NCBI RefSeq assembly: GCF_036711975.1
Contig: NC_091971.1
Location: 5,711,501 to 5,775,500, forward strand
Origin: Onthophagus taurus
Taxonomy: Eukaryota > Arthropoda > Insecta > Coleoptera > Scarabaeidae
Length of the DNA: 64,000 bases
Direction of reading: 5' to 3'
Shown: in pieces, positions 4,943-54,000 of the stretch
How positions within the stretch are numbered: the first letter of the stretch is position 1
Layout: every line of letters starts with the position of its first letter
The notes under the pieces: model-generated
What the model was told of the DNA's origin: nothing
Database searches by the model: none
Seen by the model: the letters and a program-made list of their open reading frames with translations, nothing else
Translations under genes and position numbers: made by a program

Positions 4943-7900
4943 TTATTTCGAACACAATTTTTTGTTAACGCACCCCAAGCTTAGCGTCTTAAAGTTATTG
5001 CAACCTTTAGCCAACTGAAGCATTTTCTTTAGTTGCTCTATTGATTTTAAGCACACAACCACACAACAATCATCACCTTTTTCCGCACAATCATCAGTTT
5101 CCTCATCTTTCGTTGAGGTTTTCCCGCAACATCCCGCTTTTTCAGCGCAACCACAACCCCCGTTGTTCTCATTAGCAGTGTTATTTCTTTTTCTTACACC
5201 TTCTAATTCTTTCGATTTTGTTTCTTTTTCTTCATTTTGCGGAATTGACGTTCTTGTTAAGTCTGAAGAAGATTGATTACACCCGTGACAGCTATTATAT
5301 GGGTCACACTTACAATCGATACATTTACAAATATCCGCGTCTGCTGTTAAATCTTTTAAGATATTTGATGTTGCATCAAAATTACTTTCATTTAAAATAT
5401 TATCCATATAAAAATTTTTGTCGATCGATTCGGCTAAATTCGATTGAGGCGTTTCTAAGTTAATATAAGATTGAATTGTTGTCGGTAATGGATTTTCCAT
5501 TAAAATCGGTTCTTCATAAACTGGGTTTGTGTTAATCATCCCTAAACCACCCACCCAAGTTGATGGGACTTCTTCTTCCAAAGCCAAAGACATTTGTAGA
5601 GCTTCCGGCATATAAACTTGCTTATATTTATTTTCGGGCGGGGTAATATTTTGGATACTAACAATTTTTACATTCGACGATTTATCATTTTTATCGTTAA
5701 CATCGTCAACGTTATTATTATCGATATTATTATCGTTATTATTATTATTACCCGTTTCAAAAACATCATTAAACATATCAACATCAAAATTAGTCACGCT
5801 GGGTTCATTTCGACCGATATCTAATAAATCTCGAGCGGCCTTTTCAATTTCTGTGATAATACTATTCTCCTCAAGCTCCATTTCCGTGTTATTTAACGTT
5901 TCACCGTCTTTTCCATTTTCAACGTTTTCAGTGCCGATATTGTAGGAAAGTTGGGTGGGAATTGGATCCGCTGTATTAACGGTAGCGTAATTTTTTAAAC
6001 CGCTCGCAATTTCGTAATTTGCCGGATCTGATTGAACGGCAGCAAAAGTTTCTTTAAAAATCGCCGGATCGGGTTCCGCTATATTCCCGTTTAACAATAA
6101 CATATCCACTTGATCAGTGTGTTCTTGTTGTGAAATTGTATTAAGTGATGTGAAGGTTTGGGGTTGATGTAGTTGTTTTGGTTGGTTGTTGTAATCTAGA
6201 AAAATTAAGATTTTTGTCAGAATAATATTTCAATTTTGATAAGGCGATTATTATCTACTTATACTGTAGTTAGAAGCAGGTAAGTTTTTTATTAATTTTT
6301 TTTTTGAGGTTAATGGAAATTTTTAAACAAGCAAAAAATCATATTCTCATTCATTGTTTGAATCACAGTTTTGAATACGTCATTGTAGTAAAGACGATTA
6401 CTCTATTAAATACCATAGGTATCACACCTCTGGTGTTGCAACAAAATATATGACTTTAAACTTTCCACGACATCTACACAGGAAAGAACATACCAATAAG
6501 ATAGGAATCTGTGCTAAACCAAGAACGCATTGAAAACGAAGAATCTGATGAGCAAAAAGCTGCAGGAGTAAAATCAATGTCCACAACAATGAAAAAATTA
6601 ATACTAAAATCTGGCAAGTATTGTAATGAATATTATTATTTTTTTCTGATAACAAATATATATAGTTTGTTGGGTACATTTCTTATATTTATTGAATAGT
6701 TAGCAAAAATTCTTTTTGTTCTTTCTAAAACTATTGTATGTATTTAAAAATTAATATTGCTGTCATTAGGGTTTATGTCAGCAGTATCTAGGCCTTCATT
6801 AAGTACCTAGTTTTCTAAAAGGCATATTTAGTCTTCTGCTAACAGTATCTAGGCCTTCTTCAACAGTACACAATCTTCTGCTACCAGTATCTCTCACCTG
6901 GAAGCTATTTTTAATTCTCTGATAGCAGTATCCCACCTGTTAGCGGTATCTAGTCACCTGTAAGCAGTATCTAGTAATCTGAAGGCAACGTTTAGTCCAC
7001 TGATAGCAGCATCCAGGCTTATATCAGCAGTATCTAGTCCTTCATTAAATACCTAGTTTTCTAAAGGGCGTATTTAGTCTTCTACTAGCAGTATCTAGAC
7101 CTTCTTCAATAGTACATAATCTTTTGCAACCAGCATCTCTCATCTGGAAGCAATATTTAGTTCTCTGATAGCAGTATCCCACCTGTCAGCAGTATCTAGT
7201 CACCTGTAAGCAGTATCTAGTAATCTGAAAACAATATTTAGTCCTCTGATAGCAGCATCTAGTCTTATGTCAGCAGTATCTAGGCCTTCATTAAGTACAT
7301 AGTTTTCTAAAAGGCGTATTTGTCTTCTGCTAGCAGTATCTAGACCTTCTTCAACAGTACACAATCTTCTGCAACCAGTATCTCTTATCTGGAAGCAATA
7401 TTTAGTTCTCTGATAGCAGTATCCCACCTATCAGTAGTATCTAGTCACCTGTAAGCAGTATCTAGTAATCTAAAAGCAATATTTACTCTTCTGATAGCAG
7501 CATCCAGGCTTATGTCAGCAGTATCTAGTCTTTCATTAAGTACCTAGTTTTCTTAAAGGCGTATTTAGTCTTCTGCTAGCAGCATCTAGACCTTTTTTCA
7601 ATAGTACACAATCTTCTGCAACCAGTATCTCTCATCTGGAAGCAATATTTAGTTCTCTGATAGCAGTATCCAGTCTTTTTCCAGCAGTATCAAATCCTCT
7701 ATTAAGTACCTAGTCTATTGTTATAGCTATACTATATATAGTTTACAGGAAATATAAGATTTCGAAATTTTATAATTATATATGCAAATGAAAAATGTAA
7801 TTTAATATTTTTAACATAATTTTAGAATAAATTTGAAGATAATAAATACATGATTATATCAAAAACACAATACACAACAAGCAGCAATAGCGCAAACACT

Positions 7901-13998: not shown

Positions 13999-14899
13999 CT
14001 CAACATTCTTTTTCATCTCAGATGATGGACATTTCTAAAGAAAAGATAATTGACATTACAAAAGAAATCTGCACACTATAATAATAACAATTTATTGTTT
14101 CCCAGAAGGTTCAATCTGTCTGTAGCATTCTCCCAAGATTTTACAATACCCTCTACCTTCCACCCTCTACTCAAAACACAACACTCGCTTACCCGCCTCC
14201 ACCCTCACCTTATTTCTCCCTGACATATTCTGATATATCCCAGAGTCTCCCCAAGTCTCCCTAGGCAATCCCAATACCCATCTTCAGTACCTGGTCTGCA
14301 CATCCTCTAAGAGCCCTTGCTCCTTCCATCCCCACATCTCTACCCCATACATCATTACGCTTTTATCAAGCTCTTCATGCTATGTTTAACTGCTATTACT
14401 AAAGAAAACTTCATGGTATAATTAATGTTTGTAAACAAAACTAACCTTACCTAACATTCCTTCACGCTATAATTGATATTACAAAAGAAAACTTCACGCT
14501 ATAATTAATGTTTGTAAACAGAACTTACCTTACCTAACATTCCTTCACGCTATAATTGACATTACAAAAGAAAACTTCACGCTATAATTGCCATTACTAA
14601 TTACTAAAGAAAACTTCACGTTATAATTAATGTTTGTAAACAAAACTTACCTTACCTAACATTCCTTCACGCTATAATTGATATTACAAAAGAAAACTTC
14701 ACGCTATAATTGCCATTACTAATTACTAAAGAAAACTTTACGCTATAATTAATGTTTGTAAACAAAACTTACCTTACTTAACATTCCTTCACGCTATAAT
14801 TGCCATTACTAATTATTAAAGAAAACTTCACGCTATAATTAATGTTTGTAAACAAAACTAACCTTACCTAACATTCCTTCACATATAATTGACATTTCA
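13999..14899. repeat. Tandem repeat array (about 85-125 bp unit) interrupted by a LINE
   Basis: Units contain TTCACGCTATAATTAATG, GTAAACAAAACTTACC and TTACCTAACATTCC. The word TAATGTTTGTAAACA occurs five times between 14420 and 14860, spaced about 85 to 125 bp. A more decayed unit lies at 13998-14080, and a LINE fragment (14080-14380) sits between it and the main array. Short internal words (AAAGAAAACTTCACG, CTATAATTG) show the unit itself grew from smaller repeats. Confidence 0.75.
14080..14380 (-). mobile_element. Non-LTR retrotransposon (LINE) 3' fragment
   Basis: On the minus strand, translation gives pieces such as MYGVEMWGWKEQ, RWVLGLPRETWG and VRVEAGKRVLCFE. These match the region near the C-terminus of insect LINE ORF2 proteins of the R1/Jockey/I group. 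Stops interrupt the frame. The 3' end is marked by an AATAAATTGTTATTATT-type tail near 14080. The same tail and family recur at 47.66 kb. Clade is not certain. Confidence 0.65.
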
Positions 14900-24800: not shown

Positions 24801-27800
24801 TGCCTAAATTGTAATTTTTTTAATTTTATAAAACTTAAAGGTTATGTTTCTTTTTTCTTAGGAAATTTATTGTCGGTCCCCTCCTTTCTAAAGAAGCGTG
24901 ATTCTATGATGTTTCAATGCGCTGATTTATTATTGATTTGGTCTTCAGCTTGTTCAGGTGGATTCGTCAAAATGTTCTTTTGTGTTAATTCTTTAATCCA
25001 TCAACTCTTTTACAGGTTTTCTTTAAACTTGCAGTTAAATTTAATCGCTCCACGATTTAATTACATACCTTTGATAACAGAATTCAATCTCATATTACAT
25101 TTAATCCGGCATATATTTTATAATCTAACTCCTTTTTTATTTCACAATATTAAATTTTATGTAATACTCTATTTTTTAATTCGGAGGAGTCACAGTGTAA
25201 TTTTTCAAAGCTATTTCTTGGCGGTAGTTTTAAAACTAGAAAGGATTTTAAGTAAACTGTGGTTACGAATTTAATTACTTATTTGTTTAAACATAATAAA
25301 AACCAGGGCGTACCTACTTACTTTGTCCCAATGACACTAGAATCTAATAGGACTGCTACATCCATTGATGATTTGTAGCCCACTACGGGTTGGTTGCCCG
25401 CACTCTACGTCACACTATTTGCCACGCCCAGTTAACTGTCATTGAGTTCTACGCGTTTGAAGAGGCACGGCTAAACCCGAATATTTCTAGTTCTAGGTCT
25501 AGAGTGTTAGTTCTAGGTCTAGTTTTATAGTATCACTAGAACTAACACAAGACCTAGAACTAGAATCATTTGGATTTAGCCGTCTTGAGAGACGTGCGGC
25601 TAAATCCGAATGTTTCTAGTTTTAGGTCTAGTGTTAGTTCTAGTTTTACACTATCACTAGAACTAGCACAAGACCTAGAACTAGAATCATTCGGATTTAG
25701 CCGTCTTGAAAGACTTGTGGCTAAATCCGAATATTTCTAGTTTTAGGTCTAGTGTTAATTCTAGTTTTACACTATCACTAGGACTAACACAAGATCTAGA
25801 ACTAGAATCATTCGGGTTTAGCTGTCTTGAGAGACGTGTTGCTAAATCCGAATGTTTCTAGTTTTAGGTCTAGAGTGTAAGTTCTGGTTTTATAATATCA
25901 TTAGAACTAACACAAGACCTAGAACTAGAATCATTTGGATTTAGCCGTCTTGAGAGACGTGCGGCTAAATCCGAATGTTTCTAGTTTTAGGTCTAGTGTT
26001 AGTTCTAGTTTTACATTATCACTAGAACTAGCACAAGACCTAGAACTAGAATCATTCGGATTTAGCCGTCTTGAGAGACGTGCGGCTAAATCCGAATATT
26101 TCTAATTTTAGGTCTAGTGTTAATTCTAGTTTTACACTATCACTAGGACTAACACAAGATCTAGAACTAGAATCATTCGGGTTTAGCCGTCTTGAGAGAC
26201 GTGTGGCTAAATCCGAATGTTTCTAGTTTTAGGTCTAGAGTGTAAGTTCTGCTTTTATAATATCATTAGAACTAACACAAGACCTAGAACTAGAATCATT
26301 TGGATTTAGCCGTCTTGAGAGACGTGCGGCTAAATCCGAATGTTTCTAGTTCTAGGTCTAGTGTTAGTTCTAGTTTTACACTAGCACTATCACTAGAACT
26401 AACACAAGACCTAGAACTAGAATCATTCGGGTTTAGCCATACTAAACGTGTTTGTTAAGTTTCTAGGCGGCCGGCAACATCTCGAACTTTCCTAGTGTAA
26501 TTTTTGCTAAAACCTGACCAATAACAACCCTATTTTTTGGCGCTTCAATTTGAAAACACTCCTCCAAATTTAAAAAATAGAGTATAATTGTTTAAAATCC
26601 CCTAACATATAAGAGGATTTTAGGCAATAAATCATTTCTATTTAAACTTACCATTAGCTGTTTTTAAATTTTTCTTATCGTTTCCACTTTTAATCTCAAT
26701 CTTCTTATGAACAGCAGAGACAGGAATCTGATCCGAAAGAAGTCGGACTTTAACATCAACCGGCAACTTTGTCTTACATCTTGTACATTTATTAAAATCT
26801 TCTGATAAGTATCCACAATGCGTACAAACGGCTAATTTACCAGGAATGATCTTGGGTAATTCTTTGGGAGGTTCGAAAACTGGCGATTCGGGGGATTCAG
26901 ATCTCTGAGTGGAACTTTCTGAAGTTGGAGTGTCAATTACTTGTAATGGGGGTGAAGGAGTTACAGAGGATGGAGTTTCAGGCTGTTCAACTTGAACCGT
27001 GGTCATTACAGAAGAATTCGTGTTATCGGTTCCGTACGTTACATTCACCACGTAATGGATTTCTTTCAAATAAGTCTCTGTGCAATTTATTATGGTGTCG
27101 CTGTGTATAGGTAAACCAACTTGTTCTAAAATTTCCGTTATAGTGCATTGCTCCTTAGGCAAAGTGAACGTGATTAAACGTTGCTCCCCGGTTGAAAGAA
27201 TTATCAACATCCTAATTGAATCTCTATATTCGTCATCGATTGGTGTACTTTCAATAATTTGCTTTAGTTGTAAAGTAGGTTGGAAAACTGGAACTTCGCC
27301 CACGGGAGGGGTCGTTCCATGGGAATGAATGATGTAATTTGGATTATGAGTAGGAGTTGAACTAACTTGATGTTGAGGGGATTGTAATTGCCGATGGATT
27401 ACGCTTTGTTGTTGTGGACTCACATGCGGCGCAGTTCCCCGAATTGGTCTATTGAACCGCGATTGTTGTTGATAAAGATTCGGTCGCATTAAAGGACGTG
27501 CTCTTGGAGCTGTAGCTCTTATTTGACGCTTTTTTTGTTCAAGACTAAATAAATTTAAATAAAAAATCATTAAATGTCAAAATTTGACAGAAAGTTAAAA
27601 GATAACCTTAAAAAATCTTAATTTACTTACTCAGATTTATCCATGGTGTGAGTTTGCGGGTTTACACTCGTTGGTGGAAATTTCTTTTCAGAATTAACCT
27701 GTTAAAGTAATAAAAACGTAATAAAGTGTAACAATAGAAAAAATTTTATTTTATTTACTTCCGATGCTGAATTGTAACGAATTAAAGGTTGTTTCACTCG

Positions 27801-35960: not shown

Positions 35961-36420
35961 ATAGTGAGTTGCGAATAGAAGGCTAAATACTTCTGCCAGA
36001 AGACTAAATGTTGCTGATAGAAGACTATATATTGCTGGTGGGAGACTAAATAATGCTTATGGAAGATTGAACACCGCTAATAAACGAGCTGGTACTGTTA
36101 ATTGAAGAAGACACTGTTGGCAGAAAAGTAAATATTGATGTCAGAGGTCTAAATACTGCTAATTGAGAAAGATGGAAGGTGGAAGAGGACTAAATATTGG
36201 TAATAGTAAACCAGATATTGCAGACAGAAAAAAGTAATGTGAATAGAAGACTAGATACTGTTTGCAAAAGACTAAATACTGCTAATAGAAATCTAGATAT
36301 TGTTGGAAGAAAAGGGTAGTGCTAATAGGAGACAAGATACTATTGGCATAAAACCAGACATTGTTGTCAGAAAACTAAATGTTGCTAATAGAAGATTAGA
36401 TACAAATAAATCGCTGGATA
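35960..36420. repeat. Minisatellite of the same family as MTF-1 intron 4, opposite orientation
   Basis: The plus strand repeats variants of GAAGACTAAATACTGCTAAT at roughly 25-35 bp spacing. Its reverse complement (AGCAGTATTTAGTCTTC) is the monomer found at 6.8-7.7 kb. Units here are more diverged and show no clear higher-order period. Confidence 0.7.
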
Positions 36421-38394: not shown

Positions 38395-40220
38395 GTTAAT
38401 CATTAAATTCTTAAAATCACAAAAATTTAGGTTGATTTTAAAAATTATTATCTCAAATACGAATAGAGATTTTCAAATATGGTTTGGTTTTTGAAAACGT
38501 TTATATTTTCTTCTATATATTACAAATATTTCATTAAAATATCTTGAGAATTAGATTTTTTGCGATATTTTAAAAATGATGGTCGAAAATTGTTAACTAA
38601 AAATTTGGCTTAATTTCAAAAGTTATTATCTCAAAGACGAAAAGAGATCTTCAAATACGGCTTGTTTTATGAGAAAGTACACATCTTCTTCTATAAATGA
38701 CGAATATTTCATGAAGATATCTTAAGAATTAAATTTTTTGCGATATTTTAAAACTGATGATCGAAACTTGTAACTAAAAATTTGGGTTGATTTCAAAATT
38801 TATTATCTTAAAAACGAATAGAGATTTTCAAATGCGGTTTGATTCATGAGAAAGTACATATCTTCTTCTACGATCTCCGAATATTTCATCAACATATCTT
38901 AAGAATTCGATTTTTTGCGAATTTTTAAAAATGTCGATAATTGTTGATTTCATAAAATCATAAAAATTCGGGTTGCCTTCAACAATTCTTATCTCAAAGA
39001 CGAATAGAGATTTTCAAATACGGCTTGTTTCATTAAAAAGTACATATCTTCTTCTATAAATGACGAATATTTCATCAAGATATCTTAAGAATTCAATTTT
39101 TTGCGATATTTTAAAGCTGATGGTCGAAATTTGTTAACTAAAAATTTGGGTTGATTTCAAAAGTTATTATCTCAAAGACTAATAGAGATTTTCAAATGCA
39201 GTTTGATTCATGAGAAAGTACATATCTTCTTCTACGATCTTCGAATATTTCATCAAGATATCTTAAGAATTCGATTTTTTGCGATTTTTTAAAATGATGG
39301 TCGAAAATTGTTAACTAAAAATTTGGGTCGACTTCAACAATTCTTATCTCAAAGACGAAAAGAGATCTTCAAATACGGCTTGTTTCATGAGAAAGTACAC
39401 ATTTTCCTCTATAAATGACGAATATTTCATCGAGATATCTTAAGAATTCAATGTTTTGTGATATTTTAAAACTGATGGTCGAAAATTGTTAACTAAAAAT
39501 TTGGGTTGATTTCAAAAGTTATAATCTCAAAAACGAATAGAGATTTTCAAATGCGGTTTGATTCATGAGAAAGTACATATCTTCTTCTACGATCTCCGAA
39601 TATTTCATCAACATATCTTAAGAATTCGATTTTTTGCGAATTTTTAAAAATGTCGATAGTTGTTGATTTCATAAAATCATAAAAATTCGGGTTACCTTCA
39701 ACAATTCTTATCTCAAAGACGAATAGAGATTTTCAAATACGGCTTGTTTCATTAGAAAGTACATATCTTCTTCTATAAATGACGAATATTTCATCAAGAT
39801 ATCTTAAGAATTCAATTTTTTGCGATATTTTAAAGCTGATGGTCGAAATTTGTTAACTAAAAATTTGGGTTGATTTTAAAAGTTATTATCTCAAAGACGA
39901 ATAGAGATTTTCAAATGCAGTTTGATTCATGAGAAAGTACATATCTTCTTCAATAATTTCCCAATGTTTCATTAAGATATCTTAAGAATTCGATTTTTTA
40001 CAATTTTTTAAACATGATGATCGAAAATTGTTAACTAATAAATTTGGGTTGATTTCAAAAATTATTATCTCAAACACGAATAGAAATTTTCAAATGTGGT
40101 TGGGTTTATGAAAAAGTCCATATCTTCTTCTATAATTTCCTAATATTTAATCAAAATATGTTAATAATCCGATTTTTCGCGATTTTTTAAACATAATTGT
40201 CGAAAATAATTGATTTCAAA
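38395..40220. repeat. 178-bp satellite array with four-unit higher-order periodicity
   Basis: Ten units, each with GAGATTTTCAAAT(A/G)CGG, GAAAGTACATATCTTCTTCT, ATATTTCATCAAGATATCTT and AATTTGGGTTGATTTC. The GAGAT(T/C)TTCAAAT word falls near 38466, 38644, 38821, 39007, 39185, 39362, 39540, 39726, 39904 and 40083 (GAAAT in the last). Spacing is 176-179 bp except for two units of 186 bp, four units apart. Those two share the variant TTGATTTCATAAAATC and lie 719 bp apart, so two higher-order repeats of four are present. Outer units are more diverged. Confidence 0.9.
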
Positions 40221-51074: not shown

Positions 51075-54000
51075 CTAGTGATCAAGTACAAGCCACTTTT
51101 CGGAAATTTGCTCAATTTGTTTGCTTACCATCGGATTTCGAACTCGAATTTTAACTTCAAGTTTACCACCAGTTTTTTTCCTACCATCCATAATCTATTA
51201 ATAAAAAAAATATATACAAATATATTTTAAAAGATGAGTATTTTAACTTACATCAAAACTATCGTGAATCTCACACTGCGTCTCCAATGGTTGTAATTTA
51301 ACGTTCACCGTCCCTAACAAAGCGTCTGATCTGAAGAAACCCCTGAAACAACATAATTCGCTAGCGCAACAGCTAGCACACCCCAAAATCATGTCGAAAA
51401 ATTGTTACAAAAAAAAGTTAATGAAAGAAACAATAAAATTTATTGAAAAAAAGTAAAGGAAGAAACATAAATTAAGGTGTGCTTTTAGTATTAAAATGTT
51501 AACCCTTTAACAGACTAAAATATAACTATACTCTATTTTTTAATTCGAGATGTGTTACTTCTGGTAATAGTCCTAGTGTAAAACTAGAACTAACACTAGA
51601 TCTAGAAAAATTCGGGTTTAGCCGTGCGTCTAGTTTTAGTTCAAAAAAAATATGCAACATAGTGATATTTTATGCTAACTAGCGCTGCCTACCAGCCATC
51701 TTAAGAGAGGTACAGCTAAAGAGAATGTTTCTAGGTCTAGTGTTAGTTCTAGTACTAGTATTAGTCTAGTGCTAGTTTTAGTGTAATGTCAAATTATATT
51801 CATATATTGCATTTTATGTGGGACAAAGTAAGTAGGTACGCCGTGATTTTTATTATGTTTAAACAAATAAGTAATTAAATTCGTAACTACAGTTTACTTA
51901 AAACCTTCTCTGGTTTAAAACTCGGGCCAAAAAATAACATTGAAAAATTACACTGTGTAAACGCGATGTTTCATTTGATTGCAGTAAAAGGTAACGATTA
52001 AAATTAGGATCATAAAGATGGTTACAACGCAGACAACACATACCAAGAGGAAGCTAATGAATGTAATTAACACAGTTTTCAAAGGTGTGCCAATTACGTT
52101 AAGATAGTGGTATCTTATCTTATTTATTCTCATTCTTACATATTTTTAATTAATTAAAATAATATAAGAATGTTTGACCATGTCGTTGTTGTCTTTGTCC
52201 AGTTGTAATCATTAAATAATCAAATTCCATTTATTTATTTTATTTATTCAATTCGAGATGCTGACAGGTTAGCACCAATGAAGGGGATAGCTTTCAGAAA
52301 GACATACTCAATGTGATCTGAAAATAATAGTTTCGAATCTAGAATCACACCAAGATCTTTGATAGAAGTGACACATTTAATAGATTTAATACTAGGTAGA
52401 TATGAAAAATCAATGTTATATCTTTTCTTGCTAAAACAAACTTTAGAGCATTTTGTAGTTTTAAGTTTGTTATTATAACAATAAATGACTCTATCGTTTT
52501 AATCTATATATCTCTTTGTAATTTAATGCAGTCACCAACAGTACATATACAGTGCGTTTCAAAAGTAACGGATAAATTCGATAAAATAAATTTTTGAGTT
52601 ATGACGTCATCGAAGTTTTTTTTAAATAGAACACCCTATTTTTTATATCGGAATTTGAAAGAGGATTTTTTCTGAATTATGTACAGGGTGGTTCAAATTC
52701 GATGTCTTCGAAGAGTTAGAAAAAAATTAGCTTACATGTCATGATCTCGTTTTTCGAGAAACTGCTAATGCCAAAAACCTCAAAGCGTTATCGTCTTTTG
52801 TTTTTCCCCTAGAGGCCAAAATTGAAAATATCGTAAAACCAGCAAGTGGAATTATCTTGGTTATTATTATAGGTGGAGTATTAGAACTAAGACATTATAT
52901 GAACACTTTTTTACAGAGAATTTGATGAAGTAGTCAAAAAAAAATTTTCTGTTGTAGATTTTGAGATATTATGACAAATTTACTTTATTTTCTAATATGT
53001 AACATTCTAACATGTTAAACTTTTCGTAATCTATGATTATTTGAATTAAGAAATATATGTATGAGCGCCATCTATCAATAATTTACTAAGTCATTTAATA
53101 ATAAAATTAAATATTAATAAAAAATGTGAAATAATGCAATCTATTCCAACTTTTGTGTAAAACAAATATAAATTAAATAGTTCAACAAATGTATTTGTTT
53201 CAAATATCAGAAATATGTTTTTCTTAATTTTTAGTTATAATTTACAGGAAACTGTAAATTTCATTTCTTTTAAACACTGCACGGACTACGTTATACGTTC
53301 GGACTCTATTTCCGAAACCAATCATTATAAGAATCTCGATTCTTTCAGTTTCAGTAAGCGTCGTATTACTTTCTTACTTATTGAACAGTCAATAATTAAA
53401 AAATAACCAATAATAGATAAACAATAAGATCAATAAACAACAAAAAAATAAGAACGAATAGCGAGAATAGCAACAAATAGCAACGAATAACAATAATTAA
53501 CACAAGAAACTCCACAATACCACTCAAAATAATCTCATTAACGCACAATAAACTGTTTCAAATCGAATTTTGACACTTGGAAATTTTAAATCAAAACAAT
53601 TGGTTGCCATGGTTACGCACGGCTACTACTATTTTTTATATCAAATGAATGGGAAATAATGAAACTTTAAATTAATTTTTCTCGAAAATTTTCTTATGTA
53701 ACCGATATTAATATTTATTGTACATAATTCAGAAGAAAATCCTCTTTCAAATTCCGATATAAAAAATGAGGTTCTATTTAAAAAAACCTTCGAGACGTCA
53801 TAACTCGTTTAAAAATGGCGGAAAAAATTTAAAATATACACCAAAAAATTGCAAAAAATGTAAATATTTAGACCCGTTTCAGCGATTTTTTCATATATTG
53901 TTTATAATAATTTTATCGAATTTATCCGTTACTTTTGAAACCCACTGTAGAAGACAGAAGAGATAGCTCTCCTTAGGTACTCCAGCTGTAATAGTTCATG

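Follow-up and report, generated by a model that had tools for sequence, protein, structure and literature searches.

The window analyzed here is a 64,000-nucleotide stretch of Onthophagus taurus DNA, in which a non-coding element that we call alpha extends from TACTC to GAGTA over 1420 bp, with an array and a foreign repeat piece included in this length. A sequence-only reading of the same DNA had described a terminal-inverted-repeat element at 25164-26585 and had placed it in an intron of a SUMO protease gene. The coordinates given there differ from ours (25165-26584) by a base or two at most. The copy lies ∼66 bp inside a GTAAGT-type putative splice donor at 26651, reading leftward, and of four leftward open reading frames (ORFs) compared with Pfam only 21827-22606 matches Peptidase_C48, the Ulp1 protease domain. 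The element is therefore likely to sit in an intron of a SUMO-protease gene, the linkage of the exons being presumed. The features of the two alpha copies in the window are as follows.

25163 to 25164: left target-site position, AA here where TA is expected (one base changed), in the flank ...atgtaa before TACTC
25165 to 26584, no strand assigned: whole alpha element, non-coding, TACTC...GAGTA, from the located ends and same-ended family members
25165 to 25190, forward strand: left terminal inverted repeat
25165 to 25326, forward strand: L end module (aL), family-wide, which adjoins arrays at other loci too
25327 to 25459, forward strand: foreign 133-bp repeat piece (L2), in place of the core/M5 segment of other copies
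25469 to 26438, forward strand: array of eight ∼121-bp near-palindromic units, C-A-B-C-A-B-C-A, from TRF, spacing, unit identity and folding
26459 to 26584, forward strand: R end module (aR), family-wide, which in at least eight other copies meets the array at an identical point
26558 to 26584, reverse strand: right terminal inverted repeat, differing by one base in length from the left one
26585 to 26586: right target-site duplication TA, GAGTA being followed by taattg
51529 to 51976, reverse strand: degraded second alpha copy, with an R-side terminal inverted repeat at 51529, one unit, M5, core and the L end minus its outer ∼29 bp

The last of these is the second locus from which mobility had been argued earlier, and it proves to hold alpha again, degraded and on the opposite strand. 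The part of the window copy that had been called its unique left part contains the L2 piece of another repeat, which was overlooked at the time; L2 occurs as inverted pairs at five of the eight other fetched loci that hold it. Several further repeats share the window. A separate tandem array at 38421-40207 has a period of 178 or 364 bp, with ∼10 copies of the shorter unit, and CTAG-rich minisatellites lie at 6773-7671 (21-, 42- and 246-bp periods) and 35975-36348 (periods of 21 and 82); relatives of the window CTAG-rich minisatellite flank an alpha copy at another locus (L080). A repeat with the motif CTTCACGCTATAATT occupies 14387-14896, and similar sequence adjoins an array at L003 and occurs in L067.

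At the ends of the window copy the 15-mer TACTCTATTTTTTAA is exact on both sides, at 25165-25179 on the forward strand and 26570-26584 on the reverse strand. With the flanking A the inverted match is 16 bp, so the perfect 16-bp inverted ends reported before are borne out, and it continues as an imperfect inverted repeat of ∼26/27 bp, the copy opening with TACTCTATTTTTTAATTCGGAGGAGT and closing with its inverted counterpart, one base longer. Allowing three or fewer mismatches, TACTCTATTTTTTAA has 20 matches in the 64-kb window against 19.3 expected, so that loose matches are not rarer than chance in such AT-rich DNA. We judge the ends to be real from their recurrence across the genome instead, where a 27-bp end pattern has 40 matches with two or fewer mismatches and its reversed control has none. 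With three or fewer mismatches the R end is found at 242 places and the L end at 143 (controls, 0).

The modules of alpha recur in the same order, L end - core - pogo-like fragment - M5 - units - R end, although few copies keep every module. Across the 74 stretches mapped (19 duplicate loci excluded, a few of the 74 still overlapping), both ends are present in 15; array units lie between the ends in 11 of these, only an M5 piece in one and neither in three, a non-random sample in that the ends themselves were used to retrieve the alpha loci. Two-ended copies other than that in the window measure about 290-1500 bp. The junction between array and R end falls at R position 21 and is identical in at least eight copies, and this constant position of the array in many copies indicates that alpha multiplied together with it. 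The description of a mobile terminal-inverted-repeat element with a palindromic tandem array as its body is thus supported by genome copies that share both the ends and the array position. One alpha copy (L074, 1501-1915) has two R ends, with outer flanks also inverted for ∼14 bp, as if from template switching. L067 carries, at about 2515-2942, a short element that has related ends (TACTCTCTTTTTAAACCAGGAGGAGT) but no array and probably belongs to a sister MITE family. A composite pattern for alpha gave no genome matches and was perhaps too strict.

In the fetched loci, a permissive pattern picks out 63 alpha-type ends (one of them, at L067, belonging to the sister family); the dinucleotide TA precedes 55 of these, and a pyrimidine stands ahead of that position in 60. 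Among the 15 two-ended copies, TA flanks both sides in 10 and is imperfect in five, the window copy (AA/TA) included. The one empty site found gives a more direct view of the insertion. The array-bearing locus L058 has a paralogous empty site, L057. When the flanks of L058 are joined through a single TA, their alignment to L057 scores 109, compared with a maximum of 47 in 1500 random windows; the other joins compared, which keep one or two more TA, score 104 or 102. This alignment, at a single paralogous site, places the element boundaries at TACTC...GAGTA and makes TA the target-site duplication.

The empty site lacks the ends and the array together, and this bears on whether the terminal-inverted-repeat element could be a coincidence, with unrelated transposons nested by chance in an ordinary euchromatic satellite. 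In favor of such nesting are the abundance of the satellite and the many short terminal-inverted-repeat elements of the genome, but it would account neither for an empty site without both ends and array nor for the repeated succession of L end, core, M5, units and R end. We regard this explanation as largely refuted already and very improbable.

The TA duplication and short terminal inverted repeats fit a TA-inserting, Tc1/mariner-like element, going by the general features of that group. Terminal inverted repeats of ∼27 bp (TACTCTATTTTTTTAATTCGGAGGAGT) common to dispersed copies are those of a MITE, whereas the window copy, at 1420 bp, is larger than the few hundred bp usual for MITEs. In foldback-type elements the inverted termini are long and consist of tandem repeats, whereas alpha has termini of ∼27 bp and an internal array; Helitrons have neither inverted ends nor a target duplication, and alpha has both terminal inverted repeats and the TA duplication. 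The array itself has the properties of a satellite, with head-to-tail tandem units, homogenization within arrays and high copy number. No transposase was recognized inside the fetched alpha copies, where ORFs of at least 130 amino acids were judged by eye and three repeat-side ORFs were run through Pfam, and no autonomous partner with alpha ends was found in the fetched loci, which reach only ∼1.5 kb past the match. A Tc1 transposase ORF (DDE_3) adjoining an alpha R end at L067/L091 was considered as a partner and rejected as a nested copy with its own ends.

Within the window copy, TRF detects tandem repetition from 25468 to 26438, with periods of 121 bp (88% matches) and 365 bp (95%), and the ungapped unit spacings are 121, 121, 123, 121, 121, 123 and 121. 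In a comparison of the six fully bounded units, those three apart are 98% identical (three pairs) and those one or two apart 90% (five and four pairs). The eight near-palindromic units and their order C-A-B-C-A-B-C-A therefore stand as first read, with the unit and super-period corrected from ∼122 and 366 bp to ∼121 and 365 bp.

The super-period of three units in the window (lag-3 identity 0.98 versus 0.90) is not a constant of the satellite. One array (L011) has a period of two units (lag-2 identity 0.97 versus 0.88), another (L027) a weak period of six (lag-6 identity 0.96 versus 0.89-0.94), a third (L030) is nearly uniform and in a fourth (L028) an M5-type unit forms part of a 363-bp block; a clear super-period is missing from most of the 20 loci that have at least five units. 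When 207 units from 32 loci were compared, 148 were most closely related to a unit of their own locus, against a mean of 9 and a maximum of 19 in 200 label shuffles, and 59 to a unit of another. Given that the periods differ by locus and that most units are closest to others of their own array, the higher-order order has probably formed locally, by unequal exchange or slippage, as judged from unit relationships. Repeated exchange, to which the order had first been attributed, is supported, and the differing periods suggest that each locus undergoes it separately. Unit spacings are mostly 109, 115, 121 or 127 bp (exceptions include the 123 of the window array), the 6-bp steps expected of slippage in a CTAGNN-like unit interior. 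There are 76 between-locus pairs of units more than 97% identical, so that exchange between loci or recent common ancestry may also be involved.

All eight window units fold as DNA into strong predicted hairpins (-25.0 to -43.8 kcal/mol, z of -9.8 to -18.2), which none of 200 shuffles equaled for any unit, and the energies recur roughly in threes along the array. The palindrome might then be functional, with hairpins extruded in vivo being recognized or used in amplification and the arms kept complementary by selection or conversion. To assess arm pairing we used 107-nt hairpins from 23 loci, of which 114 were found, 93 were distinct and four were dropped for less than 78% identity to the consensus, leaving 89. 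Over these, 90.5% of arm cells still pair, and they show 36 extra standard pair types and 134 one-sided changes, compared with 17-29 and 31-79 in slid controls. This high pairing and the excesses, together with the stable folds, are what a functional palindrome would lead one to expect, but excesses of both kinds are also expected wherever more cells pair. Facing arm positions correlate no more than others (mean r of 0.027 over 20 pairs, versus 0.021 for 100 near pairs and 0.022 for 1155 other pairs), and the 14 cells changed on both arm sides fall within the 6-17 of the slid controls. With compensatory evolution absent from these comparisons, we see nothing to indicate that a functional hairpin is being maintained. 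We consider a functional palindrome unlikely; its symmetry seems to go back to a founder unit.

The satellite extends far beyond alpha. The spacer motif of the unit, with three or fewer mismatches, occurs at 7815 + 7878 = 15,693 places in the genome, so that the 242 R and 143 L ends of alpha explain only a small part of it. Arrays also lie in other carriers or in none that we recognize, and the suggestion that the alpha family is what spreads the satellite is not supported: alpha is one carrier among several, and the satellite has neither its only source nor its main home there. An apparent strand bias of the spacer motifs on one contig (C1), where the matches listed were one-stranded, was set aside after a second exact pattern disagreed.

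At L006 an array lies between TTAA-flanked inverted ends (gamma; E of 5e-8) that none of 192 mismatched flank pairs matched in quality. The gamma end is found at 26 places in the genome, of which, among the matches listed, at least three (L006 included) are within ∼600 bp of array units. At L028 together with L092, ends that we take to be pogo-like, CAGTAAAAYCTCGATATAACGGA at TA, lie on both sides of an array (delta); this end occurs at 834 places, several of them near arrays among the matches listed. A third set of loci (beta; L010, L011 and L015) has a common non-alpha flank pair around the arrays, with weak inverted repeats that 21, 3 and 3 of the 192 mismatched pairs equaled, respectively. 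Inverted flank repeats were rejected as proof of a carrier in themselves, mismatched flank pairs reaching E of 3e-7 and the own pair of L027 being equaled by 14 of 192. Only L006 passes the mismatched-pair test, with L011 and L015 borderline, and hence beta is defined by the flanks its loci have in common.

We tallied carrier modules at 14 array loci that were read on both flanks and are among the most similar to the window array, a non-random set that excludes L017/L025 and L026 because a flank was lacking. Six have modules on both sides (the window, L006, L010, L011, L015 and L028), three on one side (L007, L014 and L030), and five have neither a recognized module nor an inverted repeat beyond the mismatched-pair controls (L003/L004, L005/L023, L009, L018/L022 and L027, the last with only 99 bp of left flank). 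One way to account for these data is that the satellite spreads mainly alone, for example by excision of circular DNA and reinsertion, and that terminal-inverted-repeat elements captured or nested arrays secondarily, alpha once. The excess of spacer motifs over alpha ends, the five loci of the tally with no known carrier and the three with a one-sided one are in its favor, but the constant position of the array inside many alpha copies means that the array did multiply with alpha, and the gamma and delta ends near arrays likewise speak against it. This explanation, which is compatible with a real alpha element and concerns the main route of spread, we put at a little under even odds. A spread by several vehicles, in which the palindromic satellite is cargo in at least three unrelated terminal-inverted-repeat families (alpha, the TTAA-ended gamma and the pogo-like delta), perhaps in a fourth (beta), and is re-amplified wherever it lands, we propose tentatively, as a reading with appreciably less than an even chance of being right.

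Unit matches are enriched toward the contig ends. Exact 62-base unit matches lie less than 6 Mb from contig ends at 38 of 55 loci (19.5 expected), as do 14 of 23 perfect L ends (7.6 expected) and, among the matches listed, 24 of 52 perfect R ends (17.6 expected), the 6-Mb limit having been picked post hoc and C10 (four unit loci) and some other contigs left out.

With a probability of roughly 80%, the feature in the window is a non-autonomous, MITE-like copy of alpha that passively carries a palindromic array, re-homogenized locally, of a satellite that is found also in other carriers and in none. On this reading, alpha would insert at TA through its terminal inverted repeats and would probably be moved by a transposase encoded elsewhere, with the ∼121-bp satellite array traveling passively inside it, as the empty site illustrates for one copy. 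The array would then lengthen, shorten and re-homogenize at its own locus, presumably via unequal exchange or slippage, which could give rise to the locus-specific higher-order repeats that the unit relationships support. The satellite would also have entered TTAA-ended, pogo-like-ended and third, shared-flank elements, and some arrays would be left with no recognized carrier. These data address the question of how short satellite arrays become scattered through gene-rich DNA. Given that the same array is found in several carriers and without a recognized one, transposition, which moves it, can be separated by sequence from local exchange, which amplifies it, and the arrays beside exons, with their strong predicted hairpins, lend themselves to tests of replication stability.

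Satellite-bearing MITEs are already known, and the unusual part here is that one palindromic satellite has several carriers. The MITE miDNA4 of Xenopus tropicalis was reportedly described by Scalvenzi and Pollet in 2014. It is a non-autonomous Tc1/mariner-type MITE with an internal satellite in one to many copies, and in the model proposed for it a captured repeat expands and the ends are finally lost, which leaves a plain satellite; Xstir of Xenopus and clam MITEs are described as satellite-bearing too (PMC12628747, PMC9659126). Alpha resembles miDNA4 in being a non-autonomous Tc1/mariner-type element with an internal satellite, and differs from it in the strong palindromic unit, in some locus-own higher-order repeats and in the additional TTAA-ended and pogo-like-ended carriers. 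Six unit and end motifs had no match in the literature text searched. Tetris and Galileo, of the foldback type, carry repeats in long inverted termini. The beetle element Rehavkus-1_TC also has a satellite in its termini (PMC10218199). These three, like alpha, are DNA transposons that contain tandem repeats with a link to satellites, but their repeats lie in long inverted termini, whereas the termini of alpha are short and repeat-free. Helitrons have central tandem repeats able to become satellites (PMC5139131, PMC12628747, PMC9659126). Such central repeats are common to both, with inverted ends and a target duplication only in alpha. A further parallel is TCAST of Tribolium castaneum, which resembles the alpha satellite in forming short arrays, in occurring inside terminal-inverted-repeat elements near genes and in having a second, unrelated carrier, a CR1 retrotransposon (PMC3411249). 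TCAST is part of ∼269-bp terminal inverted repeats with ACT duplications (PMC3411249), whereas in alpha the array is internal to terminal inverted repeats of ∼27 bp and the duplication is TA.
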